Below the pieces are notes generated by a model. That model saw nothing but the letters and a program-made list of their open reading frames with translations, made no database searches and had not been told where the DNA came from. The translations under genes were made by a program, and so were the position numbers. From Sphagnum magellanicum (taxonomy: Eukaryota > Streptophyta > Sphagnopsida > Sphagnales > Sphagnaceae): a stretch of 64,000 nucleotides of DNA. Numbering within the stretch: position 1 is the stretch's first letter; each line of letters begins with the position of its first letter. The stretch spans positions 17,504,051-17,568,050 of the forward strand of contig CM038924.1 of the NCBI GenBank assembly GCA_021904315.1, given 5' to 3'. Of this stretch, positions 8,174 to 64,000 are shown one piece after another.

Positions 8174-10859
8174 CATGTAGCTAGCTCATGTTAGGTCATC
8201 TGGCAAAGCATATTTGGTCTCCATGCATTTGGGTACTAACTTATACCCTAAATTAGTGGGTGGGTTGAGGGGGGCCTCCTACTAACACTTATGGCCATCA
8301 TCAACTCCCAATAGGGGTACCCCCAAATACAACTTTATTCCAAACTTATTGGTGCCCAGAAAAAAGAGGTGGGTAAGCCCAAAGAGATGCTAACCAATAA
8401 GTTATTTATTGCTACTAAAGAAGTATGGAATCCTTAAGCCTCTTTCCTTTCTTCCCATGACTAATAGTTCTTGAGATGGGGGCCTTCATAGTAGAGTTTT
8501 CCTTTACGTAGTTTTGGGGCTGAATCTTTAGTTTCATTCTCAATTTTCCATTTCATTTTTCAATTAGTTGGTATTTTTTAAATGAGTAAATTTTGATGAG
8601 AATCAATACAAAATATTGAAACTGAGTACCAAATAGCATTTATTACACATGATTTAAATTTTTTTTTATGAATAGTTAGTAGCAACAATAGTTAATAGTT
8701 GTCTAATAAAATTGAGCACTCAAGTTGAAACTCATAATATCACCAATTTTGGTGGTACTTAGAAGAGAGAGTTTGATTTATATAGTTTAGTTTTGTAACA
8801 AATTTTCAAAGCAAATTTGTCTTTGCATCTTCAGTTTCCACCAAATGGAGGGTTCTTGTCCTTTGTTTGGCTAACTTTGAGAATAACCCTAATAGAATTT
8901 GATAAATACAGGTGAGCTTACATTCAGATTAAGGGAGTGGCAGGTCCGCGGTGACATCCATTGTTCTTCATCATGGGAACAAATTAGGGCCCTTGTTCCC
9001 ATGCCCGACGGAAAATGGAAACCCCTTCATTCCCATGCCCAAGAGAAGGCCCCTTGGTTTCCATGCTTGAGAGAGCAATGGAATCCCCTATGGACCTGGC
9101 CTTTCCCATAATGACCTTCTCAAAAGTTTGGTACTACAAAACATGTTTTAGTTCTATTCCACAAAGGAACATGTTGGGATGGGTAGGGTGAAACATTGCT
9201 CCATTAGGTAGTATTAGGAAAATTGATAAAACGCACAATTAAGATATATGTAAAGTGCTCATAAGGCGTGGGGCAAGAACTTTGTGTTTGGGCAAAACAT
9301 GGGGTGTGACTAGAAAGTTGGGGTGAGGTCAATACAAAGGGAAAAAAAATTGGGGTGAAACTAAAAAATGCATCAATTTCATTGCATTCTTTGAGTTTCA
9401 CCTTGGGTTTTTGTGTTTTGGTGCATGGTGCTAGTTGAAGTGAACAAAGGTATAGACCTTACAAAGTCATGTTGTGTGTTTTCATGCGTGAAACTTGAAA
9501 CAAACTTGTTGTCAAAAAAGGAGCACATAGAGCCAAAGTGGAAGAGAAGGCTTGAAAGATAGGGCTGAAAGGTTTGTTGAGTTTGAAAGTTGAAAGAGAA
9601 GGTTTGAAAGAAGCTCGAGTGTTTTCTTGGATGCATTGAAAAAAAGTTCATTTGGAAGCTTTTGTTTGAAAGAAATAACAAACATGAACTTGAAAAGGTT
9701 CTAGTTGGGTTTGAAAGAAAGTTGAAGGTCTCAAAGTCATTGAAAAAAAGCTCAAAGGTTTCAACAATCTCAAGTTGCAAGGGGGGCCTTTAGGTTTTCA
9801 ACAAGAAAAGCTAGTGCATGAAGGGGGTGGGTGAATTGAAGGCAAGAGCTAGTCGTGACCTATACCAAGCTTTCCAACAATGTAGGCAAAGGGCAACAAG
9901 GGCCAAGAGAATCACATAGAACTTGTTGGAGGGTTTTTGGATTCATTGAGAAAGAAAGAAAGGAATGTGAAGAGTTTTTTAGATTACCTACTTAGTCTCT
10001 ATAGGTGAGAAGTATATATTTTTATAACCATGGTGATTATAACTAGATCTTGTGAAAATGAAAACATATTTTACGATTGTCAAAAAGAATTCGGGAATCT
10101 TTCCTCTTATATGTGTGGTCTTTTTCCAAGCTTTGTTGAAAGCTTTATGAGGTTGTGAAAACCTTAGTTGCAACTTGGTTAGGTCAATCCCTTGAAAAAC
10201 AACATTCGTATCTTTTTATAAAATCAAAATTTTCATCCAATTCTTCTCAACCATACGTATCTAGAACCCTAACCCAAAATTATGGCCAGGCTCGTCCAAG
10301 TGCAACTTGTTGCTTCCTCTTATGGATAACATTGTAGTTGCATATATTTTCTTGCAATTGCCTTTTAACCCCTCAATGTTATGGCATCTTTACCAAATAA
10401 ATAAAGCATGGTTTACTAAATTTGTAAACAAAAGTCTCCTTTGGAATTCATTTAAGTTTGGAAGAATTGACCATAGGTCTTACCTTCAATCCATTGCAAA
10501 CACCAATATCCCAAGGTAGTCTCTTCAAAAACACTTGGAACTTGAGGTTAAATGCTTGAGATGTATTGACAAATAAGTGATATAAACCCCACCTTTTATG
10601 AGTGGGATTTAGATTTTAATGGTTTTAGGGTTTTAAAACCATGGTAGATTTCTGTTGTAAATGACATGATATTGCAATATTTTCATGGGTCACATAGTGT
10701 ACAATTTTTTTACTTGTGTTGCATTTGCATTATGCTTTGAATTGAATTCCTTTCAATTGATTTCATTTGAATTGTTCTTTCTTTGGAATCCTTCTCTTGT
10801 TGGATTGTGATGACCTACAAATCCTACTTTTGATTTTTTCTCTAGAATCCCCTTAACCT
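8172..10859. other. Intergenic DNA, no gene seen
   Basis: The longest open frame (minus, 9,379-9,780) lies in DNA rich in the motif GTTTGAAAG on the plus strand and encodes a Ser/Phe/Thr-rich low-complexity chain, so it is not accepted as a gene. Nothing else is recognisable. Confidence 0.5.
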
Positions 10860-11830
10860 TGTTTTAAACCTCAAACCCTCCCTTTCTAGATTTGATGGTT
10901 TATAAGCTTTAAACTCTTGACTTTTTGTCCTCAAACCTTGTGTCTTTAGATTTAATGACTTATTAGTCCTAAACCTCTTGATTTCTTAACCTTAAACCTT
11001 GCCTCTTTAGATTTGATGACCTACATGCCTTAGACATTTTGATTTCTTAATCACAAACTATTCCTCCCTTGAATTTTTTACTATAGACCTTAATCATTTT
11101 ATTTGTTCACCTCGTAGACCCTAATATGATTGATTTTTTACAATTCTCAAGTTACATCTTCAAATTTGATGACGTATGTGCCTTAAACCTCTTGATTTTT
11201 TGTCCTCAAACCATGCCTCTTCTAAATTCTTAACTACAAACCTTAATCGTTTTATTTATTCATTCAATAAACCTTAATATGATTGATTTCTTAGAATTCC
11301 CAACCTATTTTTCTAAATTTGATGACCTACAAACCTTAAATTTTTTTATTTCTTGACCTTAGACCATGTTTTTCTTGATTTTTTAACTACAAAACCTAAT
11401 CACTTGATTTCTCGACCCAAAAAACCCTTAACCTCTTGATTTCTTCACCTCAACGCCTATCTTTTTAGATTTGATGATCTACATGCTTGAAACATTTTGA
11501 TTTTTTGACCTCAAAACCTTTTTTTGTTTTTATAAAACTACAAAAGCCTAATCATTTGATTTCTTGTCCTCAAAATGACCTATCTCTCTAGATTTGATGA
11601 TCCACAAGCCCTAAAACTTTTGAATTCTTGACCTCATAACTTGCTTTTCTAAATTTGATGAATTACATGCCCTAAACCTCTTGATTTTTTGTCCACGAAC
11701 CTTGTTTCTCTTTATTTTTTAACTACAAAGCCTAATATGATATACATCCAATGACATCAAAACATACCTTTTTGGATTTAATGACGTACATGCTTTATGC
11801 ATCCTAAATTCTTGACTTCAAACCTTACCT
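10860..11830 (+). repeat. Degenerate tandem array built on a GATTTGATGACCTAC motif
   Basis: About one kilobase is made of diverged repeats. The motif (T/A)GATTTGATGAcctac recurs near 10,888, 10,939, 11,008, 11,163, 11,318, 11,465, 11,589, 11,651 and 11,774. Between occurrences come CTTGATTTCTTGACCTCAAACC-like blocks, and sometimes a second block with TTTTTTAACTACAAACCTTAATC. Spacing varies from about 50 to 155 bases, so this is an old, drifted array with two alternating subunits rather than a regular satellite. Confidence 0.75.
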
Positions 11831-17400: not shown

Positions 17401-17528
17401 TTATACCACTAGTGCTTTTACTACTATTCAAAATACGCCCTTGACCCAAGTTGGGTTCTTTGGGCTCCATTGATGCGATCTATTATCGATGAAACAAACC
17501 CAAAAGAAACAAGGGATGTGTCACACTA

Positions 17529-17839
17529 TGGCCTTGCCAATTACATTTAAAAAGTATCTTAAGGCAAAAGAAGAATTACGGAAACTCAAATATTTTACCA
17601 TGCCAAAATATAATCTTCAAAAAAATCCTGTAAAAGAAATTCCAAAAACCTTCAAGATATTATAACTCTAAAACTAATCTCAAGTTTCAACACAAGCCAA
17701 AATATTATCTTCTTTCAAAAATCCTCATATAAAAAAATAGACTTATTATTGTTATTACCTAGGGGCCAAAATCCCTTAAGCTACTATACACTACGATGAA
17801 TATGATCACACAATATCCTTGCCTACCAAGGCAAGGCCA
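17529..17839 (+). mobile_element. Short-TIR non-autonomous element (MITE-like), copy 1
   Basis: A 311-bp segment bounded by TGGCCTTGCC and its exact reverse complement GGCAAGGCCA. The interior AAAAGTATCTTAAGGCAAAAG, AAACTCAAATATTT and AAGCCAAAATATTATCTT recurs in the same order at 18,369 and 20,811. It has no open frame. Target-site duplication was not clear, so the superfamily is unassigned. Confidence 0.75.
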
Positions 17840-17981
17840 AAAGCTGACCTCTTGAGTCTCTAGTCTCTCTACCTTCCTTTCAGTGCTCACTCAAAAGCTG
17901 AAAAATGATTTTTAAAAACTTGTATGCACTTTTATGCTCATGTTGGATATGAATTAATTTCCATTTTTATGAGAGAGAGAG

Positions 17982-18368
17982 TCAATGACCTTTGCATGCA
18001 CATGCAAATCTGCAACATTCGCTTTTGCCTTCAAAATATGCGACATAAACGCATCGTCGTGTGATGTCAGAAGGATTTTCAGATACACGAATGAAATAAG
18101 GCAAGTTTGTGTGTTTTTTGGCCGATGATTTGTGTTTTTTTTGACCTTGACCTTGAGGGGGAGGGGGGCCCTCCCAATGAAGGAATTGTGCAGCCTGTAG
18201 CAAAAAAAAATTTAATATGTTCAGGAAAAAAAAATTACAAAAAGGAAAAGAAAAAAAAAAGTTGCAGTTTCAGTCATACACTTATCATCCATTTCATCAA
18301 ACTGCTGATCATGATGAGGAGAAGAATAAATAAATAAATAATAAATAAACAAGAGGTGTGTCACACTG
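17982..18368. other. Spacer between short-TIR elements, no gene seen
   Basis: Contains a Pro/Lys-rich open frame on the minus strand, caused by a GA/GGGG-rich stretch near 18,155, and an AAAT simple repeat near 18,330. No motif was recognised. Confidence 0.4.
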
Positions 18369-18683
18369 TGGCCTTGCCATTTACATTAAAAAGTATCTTA
18401 AGGCAAAAGAAGAATTACGGAAACTCAAATATAATTTCACCATGCAAAAAATATAAATCTTTCAAAAAAACTCCTCTAAAAGAAACCAAAATTCTTCAAG
18501 ACATCATAACTCTATAATAACTAATCTCAAGTTTCAACACAAGCCAAAATTTCATCTTTCAAAAATCCTCATATAAAAATAGACCAACTACTACTATCCA
18601 GGTGCCAAAATCCAATAAGCTACTGTGTACTCTATAATGAATCTAAAAAAAACACAATATCCTTGCCTTGGTATGCAAGGCCA
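18369..18683 (+). mobile_element. Short-TIR non-autonomous element (MITE-like), copy 2
   Basis: Collinear with 17,529-17,839, starting TGGCCTTGCC and ending TGCAAGGCCA (one terminal mismatch). Interior identity to copy 1 is high by eye over the whole length, with small indels. The flanking GTGTCACACT before the TIR is shared with copies 1 and 3 in part, so the real boundary may lie a little further left. Confidence 0.75.
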
Positions 18684-19631
18684 TAAGTAGAAGAATCAAT
18701 ACTTAGCAGAACAGAAGAGCATGTGCTATGACTGATGTGCTATGACCAATACCCAGTGGTACACCACCCCACCGCACTCATCACTTCACTTGTATAAGTA
18801 GTAATAATTTGTTTTTCCTGGGAGCGAGCCTAAAGGAGGCCTTTGTCGTGTTGTAGACAAAGAGCATAATCATGTTTCTTGTTGCCTTTTAATCTGCTTT
18901 GGAAATGGATTATGGGTGGGTCCTGCGTACAATTGCTGGGCCCTAGGAATCAATCCATCCATCCATCCATCCTGTCAGCCTGCTGGCTGCTACAGTGAGC
19001 CAATTTTTCTGTTAGGTTGTAATGGGTTTACAGGGGGACGTGTTCCTGTGCATAATACGTTTTCCCCAGTTGTCGATTTACACCTGGAAAGCTTGTTCTT
19101 CTCCATTCCTGTCTTTCACATTGTTCTTCGGTTGTCCTAGTTTGGGGTGCATCAAAGAGATTTTTATTAGAAAGAAAAGGGTTGAGGGAGCGGCCGGGTG
19201 GAGAGGGGGCACCCCCTCTTATTTGCTTTGGCCGTCGGCGCTTGTTAAGGGTTAGTTTGACAGGTTGTGTACATCATATATGCACATATTTGGACTGTAA
19301 CAGACCCCTCGGTGTGCATTGTTAAAGGTAGCCATGTGTGACCGGGATTGGTTTTCCTAATAATTTATTAGATGCCCAGAGTTTAGCCAACTACCAAGGC
19401 AACAAACCAACCAATATTATACCCAAAATTGGGCTTCCATTAGGTACTAGGTACAGCCAAAAAAAGAAAAAAAAAAAACCCCCTTATTGTAGTCCATTAT
19501 TAAATGACACACACATTTATGTTAAATTAAATTGGCATGTTGTGATCATGCTTTTTTAATGTTATTAGTTTGGTTGGTTGGCGCACACAACACACAACAT
19601 TTGTTAAGTTATAGCATCATGATGATGGACG

Positions 19632-20317: not shown

Positions 20318-20810
20318 TTGCGGAAGTGGGGGTGAGGTGGGGTTGGTTCAACTTGGTGGGTTTGGTTCACAACTTGAATAGCAAAGGAACATGATCAACA
20401 ATGCAACAAATTATATGAGAGTATCTAGGAGCCAAAATTGGGATTGGGTGAAGGAACATTGATGAGTAACAACAATGGAGTAGTCCAAGTTAACTTTTGG
20501 CAAATTCTGTGGGGTCCCCTTTTTTAGTTTTCATTTCAATTGGGCCATTTTGTTGGCATTTTGTGCAAGTCCTTTCTAATTTATTATGGTATTTTCAGTG
20601 TAGGTCAAATTCAACATCTTTGTCATGTTGAAATTGACTAGTAACATCTAGTGTATAGCTAGCTAGTCATAGCACATAAAGCCAAGCATTTAGGCTTTTT
20701 TTCCCCTTCTTCATTTCTTCTCTTATTTTGTGTTGTTGTGTTCTTCTACTAGAAGACCAAAAAAAAACACATAAAAGAAAGAGAGAACACGGAGTGTGTG
20801 TTTCACACTG

Positions 20811-21098
20811 TGGCCTTGCCATTTACATTAAAAAGTATCTTCTGGCAAAAGAAGAATATGGAAACTCAAATATTTCACCATGCAAAAATATGATCTTCAA
20901 AAATTCCTCTAGAAGAAACCAAAATCCTTCAAGATATTATAACTCCATAACTAATCTCCAGTTCAACACAAGCCAAAATATTATCTTTCAAAACTCCTCA
21001 TAGAAAAATAGACCTATTACCTAGGGGCCAAAATCCCTGAAGCTACTACCTATACTCTTTAATGAATCTACACACAATATCCTTGCCTTGTTAGGCCC
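20811..21098 (+). mobile_element. Short-TIR non-autonomous element (MITE-like), copy 3
   Basis: Begins TGGCCTTGCCATTTACATTA as in copy 2 and runs collinear with it to CACAATATCCTTGCCTTGTTAGGCCCA. The right terminus has decayed, so the end is approximate. Slightly shorter than the other two through small deletions. Confidence 0.7.
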
Positions 21099-37881: not shown

Positions 37882-39936
37882 ATGGCAGTGCAAGCACAAT
37901 ATCCCTCCAACATTCTTCCTGACTACCGCAACAGGTAGGTACTCTCACTTCTTCTTGCTTGGAAAATCCTCACATCATAGGAGGAGGAGACAGATTTCCT
38001 CAGTAGTGAGGGGAAGAAGCAGAGGAATTGGGGACAAACTTCCTATATTTAAAACCCTAAATCTGACAATACCTCTATTCTGAAGGAAGGAAGCAAATAA
38101 CAGAAGAGATAGATTTGCCGCTCACATGCATGCATGCAGCTCACGATCATCACCAAAGAAATGCAGCTCTGGAACTAAGTCTTGACAAAATGGGGTCAAG
38201 GTTTTTGAGTTACAACAGTGTTTTTCTGTCTTGTTGGGTTCTCAAGAATGTGCACAAGATTGCACAATCCTATGCAGCATTTTGTCGTTCTATATAGGAG
38301 CTGCTTTGAGACAGGAATGAATCCCACTCACACAACTGTCTAGGATCCACCTGTCGGACTGAGTGTGTGTGTGTTTTTGTGGGTCCTGGAGCAGCAGGGC
38401 ACGACAGATGTTTGGGGGTGACAATCGCGTGTTTTTGTCATCTCTGACATACAACCAAAACACCCTTCTAAATGATTTTCAGATCCAACCTGTGGCACAG
38501 AATGGCACAGCCAATTCCTTGCGCATGTTCAACCAGCGTAAGCTTCTTGCATTTTTGGCATTTGTGATTTTTTATTTTATTTATTAAAAAAAAAGGGTTA
38601 TGCAGAAGCAGCAGGTTCAAGAAGACAAAGCAGTCAAGAAGATTCTTTACTTGCTGTTTGGAGAAGTATATGGTTTAAGATGAATTTGATTTTGAGACAA
38701 ATGTCTCAATATGTCATCAGTGTTCTTCTATCCACCATCTCAGGAGATGGGTCCTGATGAGGATGTTTTTTTTTTTCCAAGAAACATTTCTGTGGAGGCT
38801 CTCAACAGATAGGTATGATTTTGTTTCTTTTGCAGTTGCAGGCCCAGGCCAAGGATCTCAACATCCCTCATTGAATGCAGCAGCCCTCTTCAATGAGAGT
38901 GAGAATGAAATTGCCTACAACTTACTGGGGTCAAGAAAGAGACCAAGAGAAGGAGATGATACTCTTGTGACCCAGTGGCAGCGACAGCAACATCATATTC
39001 CAAATGTGGCAGAGTATAATCAACAGCAAACTTATGGATCTGGAGCTACTATGGGAGTGCCTCAAACAACAGGGGTATCTACTGGTCTACATCTTGCTTT
39101 TGAGGATGAACGAATCAATTCAACAACATCAGCCTCTACAAGTGAGAGGGCTGATGCTTCCCGATCTGTTTTGTTTGCTGTCGGTGAAGACTTGAACACC
39201 CAATTGCAGCAGCAGAGAGAAGAAATCGAGCAATTCTTCAAAATGCAGGTACAGCATTTTGAACTTCTATTTTCTGAATTTCCTGGAGTATGTTAGCCTC
39301 ATTTTGTTATTGTTTGGAGGAGAACTGGAGCAAAACTTCTAGGCTGTTTGAAGTGGTTTTTTTTCCTGACAAAGCTAGGGTTTCTTTCAGGGTGAGCAAG
39401 CAAGGCAACTATTAGAAGAGAAGAGGCAGCGACATTTGCAGTCACTTATTGCTGCCATCGAGGAAGGAGTGTCACGGCGGCTGCAGGAGAAGGATCTTGA
39501 AGTTGAAAAGATGAAGCGACAAAACTCAGAACTGGCAGAGCATGTCAAGCAGGTGAGCCTAGAAGCACATCACTGGCAGAGCAAGGCTAGGACTTATGAA
39601 GCCATGGCCACAGCACTAAGGACTAATCTTCAGCAAGCACAGCAGGCAGTGGCATTCAGCCGGGAGCAAAGCAAGGAGGGGTGTGGTGATAGTGAGGCTG
39701 ATGATGCAGCATCATCTCATCATGGTGACATGGATGATGCACATGCCAGAACATTCAAAGAGAACCGGGAGCTTCGTGAACAGCGCACCTGCAGGGTTTG
39801 CAGGTGCAATGATGTTTCTATTCTCCTTCTGCCCTGCCGACATCTCTGTCTCTGCAAAGAGTGTGAGTCTCGTCTTGATGCCTGTCCTCTTTGCCGTTCT
39901 CTAAAAAATGCCAGTGTCCAAGTCTACATGTCCTGA
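37882..39936 (+). CDS. BOI/SBP1-type RING-finger E3 ubiquitin ligase
   Basis: Four coding exons fit together: 37,882-37,934, 38,398-38,537, 38,836-39,248 and 39,391-39,936 (53+140+413+546 bases, 383 codons). All introns are GT-AG. The protein begins MAVQAQYPSN, as in the plant BOI/BRG (S-ribonuclease-binding-protein-like) family. Residues about 97-103 (SRKRPRE) could be a nuclear signal. Residues about 203-256 form a Gln/Glu-rich coiled coil. Residues about 257-290 (VSLEAHHWQSKARTYEA) match the WRD region that marks this family. A C3HC4 RING lies at residues 336-370 (CRVC, LLLPCRH, LCLCKEC, CPLC), and the chain ends VYMS. Members ubiquitinate targets in the nucleus and, in Arabidopsis, limit cell death and gibberellin and stress responses. 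That role here is transferred from the family. Every zinc ligand is present and I see no damage. Confidence 0.92.
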
Positions 39937-44771: not shown

Positions 44772-46693
44772 TTAGATCTCCTCATTATTAACACCCTCCT
44801 CAGCATCATTGAGCATTGACATAAGCATGCCGACTTGTGATTGTAGCATTTTATTCTCACGCTCAGCCTGCACCCCAATTCCAGATTTCCAAGATGGCAG
44901 TAATTAGGGCTTGAAATGCTGTCTTGCAGCTGTCTTCTGATGTGTATATAAATGGGATGCACAACTAGAATCCCACAAAACAGCTTCCTTCCCTTATCAA
45001 CCACTTCACTGACTTGTTTCAAATGCCTGTATTACAGACACATAGGTGTACATGTACACAACAGTGCCAGAACCATCCACTCTGAGACCATCAAGCGATA
45101 TATAAATGCCATTGCTTCATAAAACTGTGGTTTATATTCTATAGTACTTCTTGCTCTAAATTGTGAGATATGTACTTGCCTGAATACGCTTGTTTCTCTC
45201 TTGTTGAAGCTGAAGTTGCAAATAACTCATAGTGCGTGAGTCCTCTTCAAGCTGTTCATTCAATCCAATTATTTCTCGGTCCTGCCAAGACACCACCACA
45301 CAAAAGAGTCATAATCTGGTCCACACAAATTCCTACAACTTTTTGCTCACCCAAGCATAGCACACCTCCCAGAAAGAAGCTGCGATTGTTATTTCCACCT
45401 GTTCACAGAAGAATGCCTTCCCACAAATGGAGGTGACAACAGACTATGAAACCTGAAAGGAAAACATGAACATCTGATATGCAAGCATACCTTGTTAGGG
45501 TACAAATGAAACAGTGTTCCCTACTAGATTTAGGTCAACTTGATAGTGTTTTGTTTCGAGCAGAGGTCCACTCCTATGTCATGAAGCAACCCACTACTAG
45601 GTCTGTCCATAGAAACTATGGTCACAAAGTTTGCTGACCCATTTACACAGAATTCCAAACCAACTCACTAGAACACCTAAACCAATAGATCAAACACTTG
45701 TGTGAGATAGCTTCTGACACTTCACATCTTCTCACAAACTGCAACCTTCCTCTAGAGGAAGAAAGCAATGTCTCTTAAATCATGCTAAGACACAAAATTT
45801 ATCAATTAAAACTCAAGTCAAGGCCACCTAGAGCAGAGAGGCCAGCTCCTTGTGAAAAGGGACTCTAGAAATCTAGAAGTCAGCCACAGAAGAGAGATGA
45901 GCTGGTGATCATCCAGACACAAAGAGGCAAACCACACCTTGCGGTTCATCTCCTGCACTGCAATGTGACGCATGCTCTCAACCACATCAACATTAACGAG
46001 CTTCCGCCTCTTTCCAACCACCCACCCACGGGGATAGCTGAAAAAATCAAAATCAGGAGGAGGAAGTGTGCTCTGGGGAGACCCGTCTCGAGGGCCCCAA
46101 AGAGTAGGTCCAAGAGGCTCAAACAAAGCTCGCCTCCGCTCAGACAACTGGAAGTCCTCCATCCCATTCTCTTGAACATTGGCATCATAATCAAGTAATT
46201 CCTTTCTGCTACCATTGGGCTCTTCAACCCCTAGGTCACCCGTAGACCTATCCTTTCTGTGAAAAGATCGTGATAGCTGCTGCCTTCTGCTCCCCTCTTC
46301 ACGATTCTCAAGGGAATATATTGGTCTGTCCTTTCTGCTAGATGCTCTTGGTAGCTGTCTCCTGCTACCACTATCTCCATCAATCTCTGGATTGCACATC
46401 AGCCTATCTTTCCTGTAAGATGATCTTGATGACAAGTGATTCCTGATATCCACCTCATGCATCTGATCAGAATTGTGCAGAGAATCACTATAAGCAAACC
46501 TTTCCTTTCTGCTGTCTGAGTTCAACAGCTGTCTTCTGGTGCCATCTTCTTCTTGCACCTCGTCATATGATACAGAATCATATGCTGGCCTCTCCTTCCT
46601 ACTAACTGAGAGGCGCAGCCTTGCAGGTATTCGTGTGGCATTTGGAGGCGTGACAACCATGATATCATCCATGCCTCTGTGTTGTTCTTCCAT
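44772..46693 (-). CDS. Conserved-looking plant protein with C-terminal coiled coil, function unknown
   Basis: Three minus-strand exons fit: 46,693-45,938 (252 codons), 45,281-45,180 (34 codons) and 44,867-44,772 (31 codons plus stop), giving 317 residues. Intron 1 is GT-AG (656 bases). Intron 2 is GC-AG (312 bases; exon end CAG then GCAAGT). The start ATG at 46,693 is preceded in frame by a stop. Residues 29-149 hold five RK(E/D)R motifs, most of them with a SRRQL-like piece nearby. Residues 219-231 ([13 protein letters not shown]) are a basic, nuclear-signal-like stretch. Residues 232-310 ([49 protein letters not shown]) form a strong coiled coil. No enzyme motif is seen; a scaffold or cytoskeleton- or nucleus-linked role would be a guess. 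The gene converges on the RING gene. Confidence 0.8.
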
Positions 46694-46980
46694 TGACACT
46701 ACTCATTCCCAAATCCATAAGAAACAGAAGTGTAAGAATTTAGGGCAAGAGCAACTCCATAGAAACTGCTGACATTTGACATTTGACATTCGCAATACAA
46801 AAAAGCATACCATCTATAAGTGATCCAGCCACCATTGCTGCTAACACGAAACATGGGAGTTTAAGCTAGCTACAAATGCCAAGATTCGAAGGCTCCGGAG
46901 TTCTGTGTTCTTTTGGGTGTCGAGTGTCAAGGTGGACTTTCTCTTGTAGTAAGTGACATCCAGCAGGTGGATTCTTCGCT

Positions 46981-52968: not shown

Positions 52969-55141
52969 CACTACACCAAAAAGATGGATATATGACTACA
53001 TCCATGACTGGCTTTGTAGTCATATATGCCATTTATAACATCTTACATGACTACAAAATATAATTTATATATATATTCATATTAACATTTAAATACATTT
53101 TCGGATATTGATTTTATAAAAGAATTATTCCTTTAATTTAATTTTGAATTATTTATATATCGGATATATACGATTTGTATACAAATAATATAAAAACAAA
53201 ACATACCCATATCTATGTTGTACATTCATTATACATAAGATCAATTAACATATCCCAACATTAACCACAATCAACAAGGTCACCATGCTAGGACCAAGTT
53301 TTGGTCCTTGGATCTATTTGAAATGTTGCAAGGCCTTTGCCATCCACCTACCACATTACATGTAAAACAATGAATTCACATATAGCATTTATTATTTTTC
53401 AATGTTTGAATATATAAAAATAGAAAGTTCAAAATATAATTTCTTTTTCAATATTTACTCAAATGAAAATTTGAATATGGATTATTAAACTTTGAAGCAT
53501 GACCTAGATACGTGTACCAACCAAAAATTCAAACAACAAATTTTGAAAGTAGAAAGTCATTTTTGAACTTCAATTTTTAAAAACTATTTGTTAGATTTCA
53601 ATACATTACAAACTTTAATAAATATATGTATAATTTAAATATAAAACCTATAATATTTTAATTTCAATTATATATTTATTGTGAGTATATAATTAATTAA
53701 TTAATTAAATCCATGGTGATTATAATGTAATATTAAAAATATTTAAATAAATTATATCATATCCATTATAATCCAACCGTTAATATAACATTATAAATGT
53801 TTTTTTTATTTCATTCAGTAATTTTTCTATAATTTTATATTAGATTAAGTCTACACATTTAATATCACATACATACATACATACATACATACATACATGT
53901 GAAGTGTTATATGTATATAAATATTTATTGAAATATGTTTAATATTTTTACATAATATAGCAAATATTTTGTAATAAAATTATAATTTTAAATTGTGTAA
54001 ATTATATTTAATCATATTTGTTTAAAATGCCATTTTAAAATTTTAATATGTTGTAAATTTATGAAGCCTAAACCCATGAATAAATATAATAAAACTTTGT
54101 TAAATTTGGCTAAAATAACATAAATTTGCTGAATTATGTTATTTTGGTTTTTTTTAATAATTATTAAATTACAATATTTTGATTAAATTTGGCTTGATTA
54201 AAACTAAAGTTACTTAATTTTAGTTAATTTTGGTTAAATAAATGAGGCTAAAATAGATTATTTCGGTTAAACTAAAATAAATTTTCTTATATTATGATCA
54301 ACTTGGATGAAACCCTTTAAAACTTGGTTTAACGAATATAAATTTAGCTAAACTAAATGATTTTGGCTAAATTTCATTAAACCTAGAATTATTTATGTTA
54401 AAATTATTTATCTATTTGGCTAAATTTGAATAAATTAGGTTAAACTTGAATATTTAAGTTTAAATTTGTTTAAATTTGTGAAATTAAATAACATTTAGCC
54501 ACTTAGGCTATACCTAGTTAAACTTGGCTAAATTTGAATAAATTTGGTGAAATAAAATGTTTGCTAAAGTTGGTACATTTGGCTAATTCAAAATAAAATA
54601 AATTATATATGTTAAAGTATGGTACATTAAACTAGAATAAGATTAATTAGAATAAATAAGGTTATTTGTAATAAACTAGATTGTTTGGGGTAAATTAATT
54701 TTAAGTAGGGTAAATTAGATTGAACTAGGATTGGATTAAATTAAATTAAAGTATTTTTACATTAATTCATATTAAAATATATACCTAAACCTCTTTAAAA
54801 GCTATTTAATAAGAAAAATCTAAATCCACTTAAATTTATATTTAAGGGGTAGTTAAAATTTAATATGTCTATTTAAGCTTACTTAAAGTCTACATAGATT
54901 TTTTAACTTTTTTATTTAGAATATTTATTTAACTTAACTTGCTTAACCTACCCATGTACTTACTTAATTTAGTTATTTTCATAATTACTAGTCATATATT
55001 CATAATATTATAATCATATGAGACAAAAAAATTTATAATCATGATTAAAATCACATATGATTTGGTCATATCACTCCATGATTAAGTTTGAACATCAGTC
55101 ATAATATGTCATAGTCATGGATGGTATGTTTTTTTGTAATG
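52969..55141. mobile_element. Non-autonomous CACTA-type (En/Spm-like) element
   Basis: Begins CACTACACCAAAAAGATGG and ends ATGTTTTTTTGTAATG, whose complement is CATTACAAAAAAACAT: the CACTA-class terminus with one change at the right end. ATA stands immediately on both sides, matching the 3-bp target duplication typical of the class. Subterminal ATGACTACA / TAGTCAT motifs cluster at both ends in both orientations. The 2.17-kb interior is very AT-rich, lacks a transposase, contains a (CATA)n run near 53,870-53,898 and a long degenerate GGCTAAATTTGAATAAA array (about 54,060-54,600). Confidence 0.65.
54060..54600 (+). repeat. Degenerate tandem array of GGCTAAATTTGAATAAA-like units
   Basis: Variants such as TTTGGCTAAAATAA, TTGGCTAAATTTCATTAAACC and TTGGCTAAATTTGAATAAATT recur through some 500 bases inside the CACTA-like element. 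The units are of uneven length and strongly diverged. Confidence 0.55.
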
Positions 55142-55815
55142 ATAATAATTAAGTAAATCAAGTCATAAATTATTATTTAATATTTAATGAATTTATTCTA
55201 AAATATTATATATTAAATATGTTACAAATGCAACCCTTGGGGATGCCAAGAAGCTATCCATAAAAGAATTAATTATTATTAATTTTTCATTTACTTATGT
55301 AATTTAAATAAATTTCAGGTGTATAAGTTTCATTACTTTGATATACTTTCAATATACACATTTTAAATATAGTTGATATAACATTGGGTTTATAAATTCA
55401 CATTTTATATGGATATTGAATTGGTAGTATTTTATTAACGAATTAAGGATAAATTGTATGTTTATGAGAATACTTGAAAAAACCAGCATCACCAAAAAAA
55501 ATTATAATTAAAAAAGGAGGCACAAAATATCAATGATTTGAATTCAACAAAAAATGTTATTGTTCACAATTGGTAAGTTTTTTTTTCCATTATCGTGACG
55601 TGTAGTGTCGTGAAATATGGTGTTGTAAGGGTGTAAATCCATAGTAAGTTCTATTAAACAAAAAGACTAGAAATAAGTCATAGGTAGAAACTAATCAACC
55701 AAAAAGAGATGCATGCACATATATATACAATGCACAAGAGGAAGCTGAGACGAAATTCTCATGTATCCACCCCCAGACTTGAATTGGGGAAAACATGGCA
55801 TGGTCTGAGTAGAAA
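55142..55815. other. Sequence between CACTA element and gypsy polyprotein; possible 3' end of the gypsy element
   Basis: On the minus strand just past the last polyprotein stop there is AAGTCTGGGGGTGGATACATG (about 55,780-55,760), a purine-rich tract that could be the polypurine tract, followed by TGAGAATTTCG that could start the 3' LTR. No matching copy is visible upstream of gag, so this is only a suggestion. The CACTA element ends at 55,141 and may have landed in or near this LTR. Confidence 0.3.
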
Positions 55816-56127
55816 TCAAGCTATTATAGGAGAACATGATGAATAGTACCAATTATCGGCGGGAACTTGAATGAGCTCTAGCTTGAGGCAGAAGAGATGG
55901 TATCCACCATTATAGTTATCATAGAGCAACATATGATCATCATCATCTGTCCTTTGACATACTTGACATGGATAGTCAAGTGGAGGAATCCAAATTGACG
56001 TGATGATGGTAGGATCTAAGTTTGGCAGGTGGTAGGGTGCACAATTTTTGGAGTGATCCCAAATTGTGCGTTCGTTAGTTCCTTGTAACTCCAACACACT
56101 TGAAGGCTTGATCGCCTTAATCCTCAA
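55816..56127 (-). pseudogene. C-terminal pol tail with damaged PHD finger
   Basis: An open segment contains NCAPYHLPNLDP and then a PHD-like finger at 55,968-55,834: CQVC, DDDDHMLL, YDNYNGGYHLFC, then ADNWYYSSC. In a C4HC3 PHD finger the third, fourth and seventh ligands should be Cys; here all three are Tyr. The His and the other four Cys remain, as do the acidic DDDD run, the GGYH core and the Trp before the last ligand pair. PHD fingers commonly read the histone H3 tail. Here it would sit at the end of pol, where chromoviruses carry a chromodomain. The stop follows shortly after the finger. Confidence 0.8.
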
Positions 56128-56229
56128 AATAGTGCAACCGAAAGAAGTGGATAAAGTATCATTAGGTTGTCGTTGGAAATATACAAAATAACCAACATCA
56201 AATTATCTCATCTTAAGTTTGTAACTGCC

Positions 56230-57170
56230 ACTTCATGTGTGTGCATACCGTAAGGTGTCTCGATGTTGTGCAATGGACAAGTTCTCCATGGCCATGGGCA
56301 TAACCTTCTTGAATAAAACAACTCTCTTTGCAATGACCCTAGCCTAAGTGGATGGAGAGTCTAAGTCCACAACTTGGTCCATTTGAACAACAATGGAAGA
56401 AGGTGGAATGGGATGTTTCCCAAAAAGTAAAAAATAAGGAGAAAAATGAAACAAAGAGGCGTGTTTGGACATCCTGTAACCCATGGCGATGTAAGGGAAG
56501 GCCAAGTCTCAATCCTCTTTGTTCCTAGCGAGGCAAATCTTTCGAGGTCCCTTTTTACATGTCTAAACCATCCTCTCTACGAGGCCATCAGCTTGGGGAT
56601 GATCTCTTGAAGTTTGTCGATGGTCAATGAGAGCATGGTCAAGTAGGTCTTAGAATTTTCCCTTGAATTCTGATCCTTGATCAATAAAGCACTCAGCACA
56701 AGCCCCAAACCTATTTAAAACCTATTGTAAGAAAGCCTGGCTAGTGCTGTGTGGTGACTTGTCCGGTAGTGCAACAAGTTCGACCCATTTTGAAAAATGT
56801 TCAATCATAATCATGATGTAGACATTACCCTGGAGGTCTATGGTAACTCTCCAGCTAAATCACATGACCAATGATAGAACATGCCTCGAATAGGGAGCGG
56901 AGAAAGCGTGAGCTATCGAGAGGAAAAGGAAGTTCTCATTCTATCACATTGTTCACACCTAGCAATGACGTCTCAGACTTGAGCATACATACCTCTCTAA
57001 TGGTAATGAGGAGCGAAAAGGTTACAAATACGTTTAACTCCAAAATGTCCAAGCTCCAAGTGTACCTTCTGAATAAGACTACGCCGTTCATGTGGTGGAA
57101 GGACCACTCTGTCGCCTTGTGGTAAGCATCGGACGAGGTGATTGTCCCTTCATGAGTAGCATTTGGACCG
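56230..57170 (-). pseudogene. Integrase (H2C2 zinc domain and DDE core), broken
   Basis: The frame at 57,146 gives the N-terminal zinc domain (VHLELGHFGVKRIC, then a stop, RGMYAQV, a stop, ARCEQC). The core follows: FYHWSCDLAGELP (first catalytic Asp, about 56,861), a frame change near 56,830, CFIDQGSEFKGKF (second Asp, about 56,682) and DHPQADGLVERMV (catalytic Glu). All three acidic residues remain. A further stretch to about 56,230 (YIAMGYRMSKHASLFHFSPY and on) is the usual C-terminal continuation. At least seven stop codons interrupt it. Confidence 0.88.
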
Positions 57171-57409: not shown

Positions 57410-57733
57410 CCGTGTTTTGATGTGTAATACCAGGTCAATGAATAACCTTGAATTCATACTCTTGCAGTATAAGCGCCCAACGAGCTAACTTACTAGTAAG
57501 CTTATCGTTGGTCATCAACCATTTCATAGGCTGGTGGTCGGTATACAAAGTGAAATTAGTTCCATAAAAATAAGGAATAAAATGTATGATAGCCCATACA
57601 ATAGCAAGGCACTTTCCCTCATATGAAGAGCAATTACTCTTAGCCTTATTGTTGTTTCGGGATGCATAGGCAATAACATATTCCTTACCTTCCTCATCAA
57701 GTTGGCCAAGAATAATTCCAATACCAAGAGCAC
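57410..57733 (-). pseudogene. RNase H domain of gypsy pol, broken
   Basis: Directly continues the RT frame after LHTN and a stop: SALGIGIILGQLDEEGKEYV, AIVWAIIHF, then YTDHQPMKWLM. The first catalytic Asp of the family is Asn here and the next codon is a stop in place of the usual residue. The Asp of TDHQ is kept. Confidence 0.8.
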
Positions 57734-57734
57734 T

Positions 57735-58830
57735 TCAGTTAGTGTGTAAAATGAGGACCTTGTTAAAATCAGGTCTTCTTAGAATGGGGAACTTTGAAAG
57801 CTTTTCCTTGAGTGTGTTGAAAGCTTCTTGAACCTCATCACTCCATGTCCAAGCAACATCCTTTTTTAACAATGCATGGAGAGGATGAACAATAGTACTA
57901 AAGTCTTGGACATAAATTCCGTAATAATTACATGGTCCGATGAAGCTCCTCAACGTGTGAACATTAGTAGGATTGGGTATCTCCAAAATGGTTACTACTT
58001 TGGCCCAATGAGCCATAATACCATTTGGCAAAATTCTGTGTCCAAGGAAAACTATTGAGGTGACAACAAACTCACACTTTTTAGGATGGATCTTCATACT
58101 GACTTCATGGAGCCTTTTGAATAATTCCTCAAGATGAGCTAAGTGTTGTAAGAGTCCCTTGCTATGCACTGAGACATCATCTATGTAGCACTTCAAGAAA
58201 TCTGCCCCTTCGAAAACCTGGTCCATGATTCATTGAAAGAAGACAAGTGCATTTTTTAATCCAAAAGGCATCACAAGCCATTCCCACAACTTGTTGCTTC
58301 CATGGAATATCGTTTTCTTGCAATCTTTCGCAGTGAACACAATCTGGTTAAAACCTTGCCTCAGATCCACAATTGTGAAGATGCTTGAATCTCCAATGCT
58401 ATTAAACAATTTTTCAGGGATGGGCATGGGGTACCTGTCCTAAGGTGTAACCAGGTTCAAAGGCTTATAATCCCCGCACATCCTTTTCTTGGTCCATAAT
58501 CCAGCTGAATCCTTATTTGTTAGCATTATTGTAGTGGTTGCGCGAAATCAGAACTTGATGGCTAAATGAGACCAGCCTCATGGAGCTCTTAGCATCTTTC
58601 ATCTACTAGTTTCCACTCATGCTTGTTCAACCTATGTTTCCTCCAATAGAGAAATGTCTCATCTGTAAGGTCTATAGAGAACTGCATGGTCTTACACCTA
58701 ACTAAGTTTTTCATTGAGAATGCGAACATATTCTCATATTTAATTAGCAAGTCTATGACCTGGTCTCTTTCCTTCTTGGTGAGCTAGTTCCCCATAACGA
58801 AAGGGTAGTTAGAAACACATGGAATGGAGT
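57735..58830 (-). pseudogene. Reverse transcriptase of Ty3/gypsy, broken
   Basis: Motifs in order: HEWKLVDERC, RMCGDYKPLN (about 58,475), YPMPIPEKLFN, FTIVDLRQGFNQI (58,390-58,350), MPFGLKNA, YIDD active site at 58,187-58,176, and FLGHRILPNGI. The connection region continues to TWSDEVQEAFNTLK. Most of the segment stays in one frame and is stopped in at least four places, for example between FFQ and IMDQVF (about 58,229) and after LVTP (about 58,440). Confidence 0.93.
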
Positions 58831-58869
58831 TGGAAAGTGTGTTTGAAGAACTTGGTGTATTGGGTTCTT

Positions 58870-59130
58870 CACTATACAACTGCCCTTTCGTAGAAGGTTG
58901 TAATTGTTTCTCCAGAAGATGTACCTCTAGGTGTATCAGAAACAATTTGAGTCAAATTACATGGTAATTCCTCCCCCCCAACATTAAGAATGAAATGTAG
59001 AGTGTTGAAGATAGGCAAGTGTATTTGGTTAGGGTGCCATGTGGTCGCATCGCCAAAACTACAAGCTGATTGAATCAATGTTGATGTTGTGCTATTGGGA
59101 AGGAAACAAAGGTGGGCCAAGCACCTCTTG
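58870..59130 (-). pseudogene. Linker between methyltransferase-like domain and RT
   Basis: Open stretches read LIQSACSFGDATTWHPNQIH, FNTLHFILNVGGEELPC and a Ser/Thr-rich tail ending FYERAVV then a stop. No family is recognised. The stretch before it (59,160-59,135, RGAWPTFVSFP) is still methyltransferase-like; conserved C-terminal methyltransferase motifs that should follow are not visible. Confidence 0.5.
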
Positions 59131-59830
59131 GTTTTCTTATTGGGTTCGTAGGAAACCAAGGAGGTTTCTTTTGCCTTATAGTTGGTTGGCAAGAGCTCTG
59201 ATCATCCAATATGTGAGAAACCTGCAAGTTAGGGTCTGTAATGGTGTATTTCAAAGTCAGTTGTAGAACTGAGAGTGGTGCCAAGTTGGTCCACCAGTTG
59301 TGTAGCTGGTGCGCATAGGAACTGTAGTGCCGCATCAAGTAGAGATGACTTTCCAAGGTAATGCTTGACCAACGTGTAATGTTCCTGGACTTTCTCCTTC
59401 TAGTCAAGTTGAGAAGGGGTGTTTTCAAATACATAACCAAGCGTAGGAAAAATGGATTGAGCCTAGGTGATTAATCGTACCATGTCCGTGAAGAGACCGG
59501 ATCTTGTGTCATTCAAGCCTTTTCCAAATCTAGCTATTGAAAATCCTTGACACTCCCAACCTGAAATGATGAAGTCCACAGGGCCAAGTAATTCCATATG
59601 TTTATTCTAAATTAGTTATATGTCAGAGGGCAAAAACATGAAATTGGCTTTCCATGCGGTGGTTGCAAACTATTGTGGAAATCTGGTTGTGAGTTCTTCA
59701 TTCTTGATGCTGCCAATTTGCCTTGCAATAGGATCAATGTCTACGTAGAAATACTTTCAAACCACCATCCCTGACTATAGTAGGGCTGCGAGACTTATAC
59801 CAATACCACCAAAAAGCTATAATAATGTAA
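59131..59830 (-). pseudogene. Cytosine-C5 DNA methyltransferase-like domain inside gypsy pol
   Basis: One frame shows the ordered motifs of C5 methyltransferases. Motif I is LFGGIGISLAALL (from 59,816; AdoMet loop FxGxG), followed by YVDIDPIARQI (acidic residue at 59,741, motif II). Motif IV is VDFIISGWECQGFS with the catalytic Cys at 59,552-59,550; Glu replaces the usual Pro before that Cys. Then come GLNDTRSGLFTDMVR and motif VI LGYVFENTPSQLD (Glu-Asn at 59,426-59,421). After one frame change, YAHQLHNWWTNLAP (59,317) fits motif VIII. RGAWPTFVSFP follows. Motifs IX and X (the GFP-type and C-terminal helices) are not seen, so the 3' part may be deleted. Seven stops lie between motif I and 59,340. 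The domain sits in the frame of the protease upstream and the RT downstream, so it belongs to the element and is not a host exon. Confidence 0.82.
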
Positions 59831-59861
59831 TCCCCTCCTTAGGCGGTGTCCAGGTGATTAG

Positions 59862-60122
59862 CTAATGAAATGTTGGCTTAATCAATTCGCCATGGCTCTT
59901 CATGTTCTCAAAACTAAACAGAGCTTTGACCAAGGGCTCGTGGGTTGCTTTGAACTTATGTAAAACCTTTGGTCTGTGTTGAATGTTAGTAGGAACCACC
60001 TTTAAGCTTTCAATAGCTTGAGTGTAAGTTGTCTCTTCTTCATCTCCCTCTATCCATTTGTGGCTAGCTTGTTGGAAGTAAAAAATAGTGTGTGTTTCCT
60101 TGAACATACAATGGTGAGCCAT
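59862..60122 (-). pseudogene. Linker between protease and methyltransferase-like domain
   Basis: Open 86-codon stretch in the same frame as the protease and the methyltransferase-like domain (MAHHCMFKETHTIFYFQQAS and on). No known domain. It follows the protease after a few stops and leads directly to motif I, which supports a single polyprotein. Confidence 0.55.
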
Positions 60123-60212
60123 ATGAATATGGTTCCCATGTAAATCAAGGGGTATGTATCCTAAGTGGTGGCCATTAGTCTCCTAATCCATTCGATAGTA
60201 CGCATGTTCAAA

Positions 60213-60995
60213 CTAGTTGTCAATTGTGAAACCTGGTGGAAACAGGGCCTCTTGCCCAATGAACACATCGTAATTGGTGGCATTGGTGACTAAACTTCTG
60301 ACTTGCAGGTAAAGCTCTTGATCTATACCTTTATTGAAATTAAGTGCAATCAAATCCGAGCTCTCCCCAAGTACCTCATCTATGCTCCCATTAACGGTGT
60401 GAATTTGCCACATAGATTTCCATAGTTTGGAGTCGAGCATGCCCATCTTCTTGGTGAATTGAACTCCAAGAATCACTGGTTGGGCACGTGTATCAAGAAG
60501 TACCATTATGGGTGTATGTTCTCCCACCTGGATTGTTGACTCAGTATTGTCAACAATGGCAATTCCAGTGGCGATGGAAGTTCTTTCACTAGGAACCACG
60601 TTTAGAAATGAGTGAGAGATTTTGCGGAAAGAATGGTTATCCACAACGCCTTTGTTGAGTAACAAATCCCCAAGTGAGGTGTTTTTAACTCCCTTTTGAT
60701 ATGTGAATGTAGAATTAGAGGTAGGAGAACCCACTAGTTTAGCCATGCTAGAACTAATGATTAAGTTACAAACGCCATTTACAACACGTGAGCTAATCAA
60801 ATGTCTCTTTAGGGTGTTGGATGGGACCCCTGTAATATGTGGATCAAGGATTGGTAAAGGACTTGATGTAGTGTTCATGGTATCTTTTAGTATCATAATC
60901 ATGTCTTTGATGCTTAGCTTCAAATCTTGAAAACTAAACAACGGTGTATTCACAAGCTTTTGAGCCATTTCACGCATTTGAAGTTGGCATTCCAT
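60213..60995 (-). pseudogene. Retropepsin-like aspartic protease region of gypsy pol
   Basis: Open 260-codon segment. The active-site block is MVLLDTRAQPVILG at about 60,506-60,465, where family members have DTGA; the Gly is Arg here, which should inactivate it. A second block, YDVFIGQEALFPPGF, near the end fits the conserved ILG-like region of retropepsins. The N-terminal half is Ser/Thr-rich and unrecognised. Confidence 0.75.
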
Positions 60996-61025
60996 AAGTT
61001 GATTAGTAGAAAATTGTGTGTTTTT

Positions 61026-61535
61026 TTAATGTACATGTACTCTTAGGACACGAAAATTTGATGCCCTAGCAGCTTGTGGTGTAGTAGTCTCCTCCCCCCT
61101 CGCTAACAAGGTGCATTTTCCTTCCATGTTGAGAAGACGAAAAAATTGTGCCATGATTGCTTGAGTTCCTCTAGCCCTAATAATAGGACTTGAACCAGAT
61201 GTGAGTCCATTAGTCTGAATTACTTGCCTAATGGCAGAAATTATGGGTGCAACACTAGCTTTTTGTGTTACAAAGTAGGAAGGGCAAAAGGAAGTGGTAA
61301 ATTCTGGTGTGAGACTAAAATTGTATGCACTGGAAAAAACATATTCCCCAACCATGACATCATGTGGGAGGCCATAAAACAACCTAAGAGGTCTTTCTCG
61401 TGACCCTGAACCCTGTACATGTTGGGCATGATTAGATAGTTGGGAAGATTTGCCTTTTATATTAGCAAGTTGGGCCTTCAATGATTCAAGTTCATTTTGC
61501 AAAGTTTGAACTTGAATGGCATGGGTTTGAAGCAC
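61026..61535 (-). pseudogene. Gag-pol linker region, unrecognised
   Basis: Open 169-codon segment starting with a coiled-coil-like stretch (LQNELESLKAQLANIKG) and continuing with no recognised domain. It shares the frame of the protease region and lies between the gag zinc knuckles and the protease. Confidence 0.5.
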
Positions 61536-61679
61536 CTCCCTCTTGTTAACATTGTGTTCCTTTTTTTTAGCATTCTTATTGGAATTACCCTTGGTGGGGA
61601 AAGCTTAAGTGGAAGGTTGAAGTGCCTTGACTTTTGGTTGAAGGACAGCAAAAAATGTTAGCAGATTTTGTCATGTTAA

Positions 61680-62989
61680 TTAGAGTTGCTTTCGTTTTGG
61701 GAACTTGGCAAAACAAACAACTTCATGATGTCCTTCTTTCCCACAATAATCACAAAAGAGATCCTCGGAAGGAATGTTGCACTCATTAACTTTGTGGGCA
61801 AGATTGCCACAATAATTGTAATAAGGTAAGATGGGTGCAGCTGAATGCACTGCTTTAGCCCTTGAAGTAGAATGTGATGATTTGGTTGGCACAACTGGTG
61901 GAGGTTGAGGCTTTGAACGTGATGGAGGCCTCATAGTACTGGCCTCATAGTGTGCATGAACCAGTTCCAATTTTTCAAAAATGTTGTACACATCCAGCAA
62001 AGAGTACGAATCCCCAAATTTTGCAAAATCTCGTTGTAAAACCTACACATGGAGTGTCGAAGTACCTTCCAATGAACGAAAATATCGATGGGCAATTTCC
62101 AGGTCTCTAATGTTCTGAGTATCTTCTTTAAGCTTAAGAAGCCTCATGTAAAGCATCTTGAGAGTTTCATCCTTCTGCCGAGAGAATGTGGCAAGCTGCA
62201 GAATGTTTTCAGAACTCTTGATTGAAAATTCTAGCTCAAGAACTCGAAAGAATTCCCCCACTAGATTAGTAAAAGCTAATGCATTGATGGTGGGAGGAAT
62301 GTTTGCAGTAGCAACAATGAATTGTTGAGGAGAAAAGTTTACTACAATAGGTACCAGGTCTGGATTATTGGGCATAATCCTATGATGTGCAATAGTACCT
62401 TGTAATGCAACTTGAAAAGCGGTGGCGGTGGCGATGGTTGTGGCATAAGTTGGATTGGGGATTTAAGTAACACCCATAATCCTTAGAGAATGTTGTTCGT
62501 AGACATCCAATGCTTCATAATGCACATAATGGGCCAATTATTTGAATATGAATGCCTTAGTGTAATTAGTGTCATATTTAAGCTCCAATTCACAATTGCC
62601 TTAAATTCTCTCAAAGAAATGATACCTGGCCTTTCGTTAAACTTCTTAATTTTTTTAGAAGAACTCTTGACCTCCATGGTGTATATGGGTGTAAACGTAA
62701 CAACTTACACCGGAATATATGATGATGGTGTGAAAGTAGGTGCACCACTAGTAGGCGTACCCCACTAATTAACCATTCCAAATGGACTTTGATGTACCGT
62801 TGATGTTGTGTAATTTGACCCTGAATTCCTGGTAGGAATTATACTCGATGACGGTGGTGTTATAGATGCTTGATGGTCTCGTCGTGAAAATCGTGAGCTT
62901 AAAAAAATCAATTCAAAGGATTGTGTGTTATTTCGTAACTAATATTTGGGCTTTGGCTGAGCAGTAGTGCTTTCATCATCCGAGGACAT
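61680..62989 (-). pseudogene. Gag of the gypsy element, with CCHC zinc knuckles, broken
   Basis: The likely start is the ATG at 62,989 (MSSDDESTTAQPKPKY then a stop). The same frame continues through two more stops to MEVKSSSKKIKKFNERPG at 62,677, a retrotransposon-gag beginning. A frame change before 62,375 leads to the gag core, stopped at 62,043-62,045. The C-terminal part (62,000-61,680) has two knuckles: the first (61,820-61,779) has Tyr in place of the first Cys, while the second, CDYCGKEGHHEVVC at 61,754-61,713, is intact. Gag packages the RNA and forms the particle. Confidence 0.85.
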
Positions 62990-64000
62990 GGTGTTGTCCC
63001 ATGCCCTAAAATGTTGTGATAATACACAACACAAAAAAATTCTAACACAATGTACAATTTGAAGAATACAGTGCATTGATGGGAATGACCCGTGACACAC
63101 AGAGATTGCATGGAGGTCAAACGAACGTTGGACGAAGGTCGGATGGAAATCAAACAGATGTTGGATGAGAAGGCAGGATGACAAAACAGTACGTAGGACG
63201 GTATGATATAGGACGTAGGACGGTAGGCGCATGACGTAGGACGACATGACAATAGGACAACAGGACGCAGGATCGACGGATGGAAGTCCGTGGACGAAAG
63301 TCCAATAGACGGAAGTCGGATGGAAGTTCGACGAAAATCCGACGGAAGTCGGACGGACGTCCGACGAAAGTTCGATTGACATCGGACGTGCAGAGCTTAG
63401 CCATCGTTGCTGCGATGGCGGGCGGTGGTCCTACACTCCAACTCGTCAACGTAACGTTGTAGCGATGGCAGAGTTACGGTGATGGCCGAGAGCACTATAG
63501 CACGTGACGCTGTTGCGACGATGGTTGGGAGCGCTACAGCTCGCGACGTTGCTACAGTGTTGGCCGGCAGCGTTGCTGCAACTTGCGGCGATGCTACGGC
63601 GCTGGCTGGCAACGCGCTGCAGTTCACAGCGCTACTGTGATGGCCAGCAACATGCTGGACCTCGCAGCGCGCTACAGCCCTAGCCAACGCTGCGTTGCAA
63701 TGTTTCTTTTTTATTTATTTATTTATTTATTTTTACTCGAAAACTATAAGAGAGAAAAAGAATGGGAGAAAGAGAGAAATTTTGAAACCTGCTCTCTAGT
63801 GTCCTGGCTTCATTGGTTGTAAGAAATGTAATAACGCAAGCTCCCTCCAACAACACTAGTAGCAACATTAGTAACGCGCTCCTTCTGGCAGCAACAACAC
63901 GAATAACAACAATTCAAGAATTTCAAAAGCACAAGAAATCTGTTACTTTCAACATTAAACAACAAGGAATAGAGTTTTCTAGAATTGAATTGCAATGAAA
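62990..64000. other. Region upstream of gag; leader or LTR not resolved
   Basis: No primer-binding site complementary to initiator Met-tRNA and no LTR matching the far end of the element could be found. The stretch 63,100-63,690 is unusually GC- and CpG-rich. An ATTT repeat lies at about 63,710-63,735. The last 200 bases show nothing recognisable. Confidence 0.45.
63100..63690 (+). repeat. CpG-rich degenerate repeats upstream of the gypsy gag
   Basis: Two kinds of drifted repeat follow each other: ACGTAGGACGG / GACGGAAGTCGGA-like units (63,100-63,390), then GCGATG.. / CGCTACAGC / GCTGGC.GCAACG-like units (63,400-63,690). The stretch is far more GC-rich than anything within 15 kb. It could be part of the element's leader or LTR. 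Confidence 0.55.

Follow-up and report, generated by a model that had tools for sequence, protein, structure and literature searches.

Plant transposons are silenced by cytosine methylation, and therefore an element with a methyltransferase of its own raises the question of whether the enzyme protects the element's cDNA, disguises the element or restrains it. The question is posed here by a locus in a window of 64,000 nucleotides (the whole stretch of DNA analysed, to which all positions refer), where a segment resembling a C5 cytosine methyltransferase lies on the minus strand amid the remains of a retrotransposon.

A dead gypsy element around the methyltransferase

Read in its coding direction, the element comprises the following features.

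62,043–62,462, minus strand: Gag capsid-like piece in frame 2 (by eye; no Pfam match up to E 1)
61,680–62,042, minus strand: nucleocapsid piece with one C-x2-C-x4-H-x4-C zinc knuckle (by eye; Pfam matches weak, below cut-offs)
60,213–61,025, minus strand: protease region, with LDTR at 60,487–60,497 at the expected place of the active site by eye (position; PF13975, gag-asp_proteas, E 0.032, below cut-off)
59,862–60,182, minus strand: linker of 106 aa, in a frame common to protease and methyltransferase (no Pfam match above cut-off)
59,337–59,861, minus strand: C5 cytosine methyltransferase, motifs I to VI, with 8 in-frame stops (PF00145; TIGR00675, below cut-off; phrog_116; DNMT3A in the PDB, E 9.9e-6)
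59,105–59,335, minus strand: continuation in another frame, a motif VIII-like stretch (by eye) and what comes next (0 stops in 77 codons)
58,870–59,104, minus strand: stretch between methyltransferase and reverse transcriptase, motifs IX and X not recognised (no Pfam match for the ORF 58,872–59,201)
57,735–58,850, minus strand: reverse transcriptase (RT), broken, the first part shifting frame and the later part in frame 2 (RVT_1, E 4.2e-11 on 57,735–58,229)
57,435–57,734, minus strand: RNase H (PF17917, RT_RNaseH, E 2e-30)
56,916–57,149, minus strand: H2C2 zinc-binding domain of the integrase (PF17921, Integrase_H2C2, E 6.8e-13, with X at two stops)
56,203–56,935, minus strand: integrase core region, broken (by eye; a 101-aa piece tested had no Pfam match)
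55,816–56,202, minus strand: C-terminal ORF, with the C-terminal part of the integrase (by eye and position) and then, with the frame still open, a PHD finger at about 55,834–55,968 (PF00628)

The matches to RVT_1, RT_RNaseH and Integrase_H2C2 follow each other on one strand in the order protease, RT, RNase H and integrase, with the protease weakly matched and the integrase core unmatched. A further RVT_1 match (E 8.3e-6, below cut-off) falls on the piece of RT preceding 57,735–58,229, and the protease motif is separated from the DRYPMP stretch of the RT by about 2 kb. The element is a dead copy of a Ty3/gypsy LTR retrotransposon. Its polyprotein can probably be read as Gag, nucleocapsid, protease, C5 cytosine methyltransferase, RT, RNase H, integrase and PHD finger, where gag, zinc knuckle, protease and integrase core were recognised by eye or from weak matches.

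A pair of LTRs was not found in the window, and the 5' end of the element may lie beyond it. When 63,001–64,000 was compared with 53,501–55,830, the local score was 34 and the best of 30 shuffles reached 31, but what aligns is A/T sequence of low complexity; 63,001–64,000 contains no initiator-Met primer site (at least 9 of 12 positions).

The segment encodes a C5 methyltransferase

The initial annotation had seen a C5 methyltransferase in the motifs of the minus strand, and profile searches now detect one there. PF00145, the Pfam family of these enzymes, matched above its curated cut-off both the stop-free 47-residue piece at 59,466–59,606 (minus strand; E 7.7e-8) and the 178-residue segment in which stops were masked as X (E 1.3e-9), in the latter over residues 66–150, that is, motifs IV to VI. 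Two PHROGs families described as DNA methyltransferase also matched the segment, phrog_116 with E 3.4e-13 over residues 7–132, motif I included, and phrog_363 with E 1.1e-11; TIGR00675 gave E 3.8e-10, yet stayed under its cut-off of 100.65 bits. The best matches in the PDB were chains of DNMT3A (aligned over residues 13–135, again with motif I), then M.HhaI (E 6e-4) and then 4onj (E 0.18), which we take to be a DRM. Of 2100 pieces from the six-frame translation of the window, the 47-residue piece is the best match to human DNMT3A, though only at E 0.047, and none of 2000 shuffles reached its score. Because the profile E-values are significant on a piece free of stops, a chance match to the motifs can be ruled out, and on this sequence evidence the methyltransferase segment is almost certainly real. 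AlphaFold2, run on the single sequence of the segment, returned a mean pLDDT of 36.9, too low to tell anything about the fold.

The segment extends roughly from 59,861 to 59,105 on the minus strand. Motif I is read as LFGGIG (59,803–59,813), motif IV as WECQ (59,547–59,558) and motif VI as FEN (59,421–59,432), all on the minus strand, so that Phe-Gly-Gly of motif I, the catalytic Cys (codon 59,550–59,552) and Glu-Asn of motif VI are all retained; the latter two had been read correctly in the initial annotation, which placed the Cys at 59,552. That annotation had also listed motifs I, II, IV, VI and VIII in this order. The unrearranged order I, IV, VI stands and is backed by profiles, whereas motif II is seen by eye only and motif VIII is not significant by itself. 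R-x-R is the usual signature of motif VIII in C5 methyltransferases. The stretch taken for it, which looks DNMT3A-like by eye, lies in another frame than motifs I–VI and has Q-L-H where R-x-R is expected, with both arginines missing. Taken alone, it was not significant against DNMT3A (128 of 2000 shuffles were as good, and 100 of 1000 in a second run) or against HhaI (276 of 1000); it had no Pfam match, and no methyltransferase was among its PDB matches. Neither motif IX nor motif X was found in this decayed copy between the motif VIII-like stretch and the RT.

As to the kind of enzyme, the plant rearranged Dnmt3 (DRM) has motifs VI–X ahead of I–V, and a DRM-type layout is excluded here because the motifs run I, IV, VI. 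Over 178 residues DNMT3A is ahead (29 bits, against 23 for HhaI and 15 for 4onj; z 18.0 against 13.6 for HhaI), whereas over the 47-residue piece HhaI is ahead (22.4 bits against 16.3 for DNMT3A; z 14.6 against 10.5). Since the lead changes in this way with the length compared, and since the motif VIII-like stretch is not significant, the similarity scores point to a C5 methyltransferase that is Dnmt3-like at best, the choice between Dnmt3-like and bacterial-like being unsettled.

The methyltransferase as a probable former part of the polyprotein

The protease region, the linker and motifs I–VI lie in a single minus-strand frame (frame 2), to which the later part of the RT and the RNase H return. 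The methyltransferase thus sits between a protease-like region and the RT, in frame with both, in agreement with the initial annotation. In frame 2, the protease region (60,213–61,600) has 2 stops in 462 codons, the linker (59,863–60,212) 1 in 116, the part with motifs I–VI 8 in 175 and RT-RNase H 4 in 363, and after motif VI frame 0 is free of stops for 77 codons. Homology alone assigns motifs I–VI to frame 2, because this frame, with 8 stops against 7 in frame 0, is no more open there. Since no frame change was seen, the methyltransferase shares the frame of the protease region and the linker, as expected of a polyprotein.

With segment borders and best frames picked by the analyst, stops are denser in motifs I–VI (8/175) than in the remaining 11 segments, each taken in its best frame (34/2121 codons; Fisher p 0.012). 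When the 77 codons after motif VI are added, the figure becomes 8/252 and p rises to 0.079, the comparison set being unchanged and still containing those 77 codons. The denser stops possibly reflect relaxed constraint, or chance.

Such a density would also suit a fragment or retrocopy of a host methyltransferase gene that had landed by chance in this one copy and was never used by the element family. That only one copy is known speaks for such an insertion too, as does the lack of relatives in the collections scanned, which held viral, bacterial and archaeal records and no plant genomes. In viral contigs, 2 stretches fitted the pattern of the methyltransferase segment and 7 that of an RT piece, and none of them was confirmed; of two degenerate patterns, one found nothing and the other a single contig (L001), with the pattern out of frame and phage-like ORFs by eye. 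Contigs of bacterial and archaeal genomes gave 17 pattern matches, none confirmed. A tblastn search of phages returned 152 records that were similar locally; none reached 80% coverage of the query, and identity was below 60% throughout (20 of the 152 were listed). Within the window, 84 minus-strand pieces of the element (at least 25 aa) were compared with 1834 pieces left of 55,500 in search of other copies, with three weak matches only (E 0.010, 0.029 and 0.050).

Against a chance insertion stand the frame, which stays the same across the protease region, the linker and the methyltransferase as far as motif VI, the position of the segment at the border of the protease and RT domains, and a gypsy element of Klebsormidium nitens that also holds a Dnmt3 inside Pol, according to excerpts of PMC5890265. 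We consider a chance insertion improbable, and the methyltransferase was very probably once part of the element's polyprotein, known here from one copy.

A PHD finger behind the integrase

As judged from its profile match, the last domain of the polyprotein is a PHD finger behind the integrase, a new feature that was absent from the initial annotation. PF00628 matched residues 79–123 of the 128-aa C-terminal ORF above cut-off (E 7.2e-6), and in the PDB the finger matched WSTF (E 2.9e-9), Jumonji/ARID protein 1D (E 1.1e-7), KMT2D (E 2.4e-7) and the plant protein ATXR5 (E 2.7e-6). In the present copy 3 of the 8 zinc ligands are Tyr, by eye in comparison with WSTF. No chromodomain match was seen up to E 1 in the 128-aa ORF, where the PHD finger and DUF7685 (below cut-off) were the only matches. 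The ADD domain of DNMT3 resembles a PHD finger, and the pairing of methyltransferase and PHD finger, here in a mobile element, is like that of methyltransferase and PHD-like ADD domain in animal DNMT3.

Possible roles of the two modules

As long as the family was active, its methyltransferase would have been made as part of Pol and packed into the particle with the RT. Its substrate would have been the newly made double-stranded cDNA, with cytosines methylated before integration or in the course of it, such that each copy arrived already marked. By analogy, this job can be suggested for the enzyme tentatively, as a possibility that falls somewhat short of probable; methylation of cDNA has been proposed for DIRS elements, according to excerpts of PMC5890265. 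The putative PHD finger, in the place that the chromodomain has in chromoviruses, may have read the histone H3 tail and steered the choice of landing place, and we hold the chances for and against such PHD-guided integration to be about even. Taken together, a plant gypsy lineage, present in land plants, might have carried a write-and-read chromatin kit in one polyprotein, its methyltransferase marking its own cDNA and its PHD finger reading histone H3 for the landing site; as a whole this proposal is doubtful.

The methyltransferase could instead have served Pol as a structural or nucleic-acid-binding module, catalytically dead throughout the family. Motif IV reads E-C-Q, Glu replacing the Pro of the usual P-C-Q (as in HhaI) before the catalytic Cys, and the denser stops in motifs I–VI point the same way, as does the K. 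nitens enzyme, which gave no methylation in yeast, a result that its authors call inconclusive (excerpts of PMC5890265). Nevertheless, the retained catalytic Cys, Glu-Asn of motif VI and Phe-Gly-Gly of motif I argue against this explanation, which we judge unlikely. Least probable is that the methyltransferase silenced the element's own or rival copies, or viruses, instead of protecting cDNA: a host benefit is raised as a possibility in excerpts of PMC5890265, and anti-viral defence in PMC6338049, but the observed/expected ratio of CpG in the coding part of the element (0.38) is no lower than the run of three other window stretches (0.25, 0.27 and 0.42, with 63,050–64,000 left aside).

Other features of the window

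Upstream of gag, 63,109–63,384 (and 63,050–64,000) contains direct repeats, such as GACGGAAGTCG, that recur every 11 nt, and 63,050–64,000 is rich in CpG, with an observed/expected ratio of 1.27 against that of the element's coding part and 0.25–0.42 in the other stretches measured. The G+C content of the window is about 0.23–0.48 in 2-kb steps, and scans of the window with Rfam and for tRNAs gave no matches. On the plus strand, an ORF at 39,379–39,936 encodes a C-terminal RING finger (PF13920, E 2.7e-11) and is presumably BOI-like; the ORF before it, at 38,679–39,296, may be an upstream exon. Taken with the base composition, the RING-finger ORF points to a streptophyte host, probably a land plant. 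An open frame of 294 aa at 45,818–46,702 (minus strand) contains repeated RKER/RKDR-like motifs by eye and has no Pfam match. Three repeat copies of about 300–350 bp, 82–83% alike, lie at 17,503–17,843, 18,343–18,687 and 20,798–21,096, and a block of overlapping direct repeats, 65–81% alike, occupies 10,850–11,736.

Comparison with known systems

Transposon-borne DNA methylases have been stated to be absent from land plants (PMC6338049), a statement that this locus contradicts, provided that its host belongs to the land plants. Neither the word methyltransferase nor the word PHD is used in the main text of PMC6317226, which surveys 8453 gypsy elements of plants, and among the literature matches listed (mostly open-access papers, with repeat databases outside the scope) none described a gypsy element of a plant in which the two domains occur together. 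Excerpts of PMC9033089, PMC10508981, PMC5408684, PMC3286476 and PMC7602945 hold nothing on plant gypsy elements with a C5 methyltransferase.

The closest parallel is found in the charophyte K. nitens, whose KnitGypsy-Dnmt3 is likewise a gypsy LTR element with an unrearranged, in-frame C5 methyltransferase inside the Pol polyprotein, there under purifying selection (excerpts of PMC5890265). In contrast to the present element, its host is an alga, its membership of Dnmt3 was established by phylogeny (that of the present segment being unsettled), its repeats are DIRS-like according to a figure legend (none were found here), and the word PHD is absent from the main text. The initial annotation was aware of a methyltransferase inside a retroelement of a charophyte alga, but knew no described family with one between protease and RT of a land-plant gypsy element. 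The kind of element is in print with KnitGypsy-Dnmt3; in detail, the view that this is not a described family may hold for the combination of methyltransferase and PHD finger. Retrotransposons with captured DNA methyltransferases are thus already known, and it is that combination which may be new.

SymbioDIRS-Dnmt3 and SymbioLINE-Dnmt of Symbiodinium are also retrotransposons bearing a cytosine methyltransferase, in the DIRS type within Pol, and two SymbioDIRS-Dnmt3 enzymes methylate CG de novo in yeast; they differ in being DIRS and LINE elements, with a tyrosine recombinase or an endonuclease instead of a DDE integrase (excerpts of PMC5890265). Sola1-1_Ec32 of Ectocarpus likewise encodes a DNA methyltransferase, which has been proposed to mark the transposon's own sequence, but this is a brown-algal DNA transposon with a ParB-like domain, and its enzyme, encoded by a separate gene, is predicted to act on N4 of cytosine or N6 of adenine and not on C5 (excerpts of PMC12477816).

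At the C-terminal end, a gypsy-related integrase with a PHD finger occurs in one listed family of Ginger1 DNA transposons, Ginger1-9_HM of Hydra; this is an animal DNA transposon, in which PHD is listed with Ulp1, and RT and methyltransferase are not listed in the excerpts of PMC2836005. Chromoviruses, too, carry a histone-reading module at the C-terminus behind the integrase, which is a chromodomain there and a PHD finger here, and no methyltransferase is described for them in excerpts of PMC3350952. The PHD finger is a targeting module that can be put to the test and that differs from the chromodomain which chromoviruses carry, and its presence alongside a methyltransferase suggests that some mobile elements once bore their own tools for both marking and reading chromatin.
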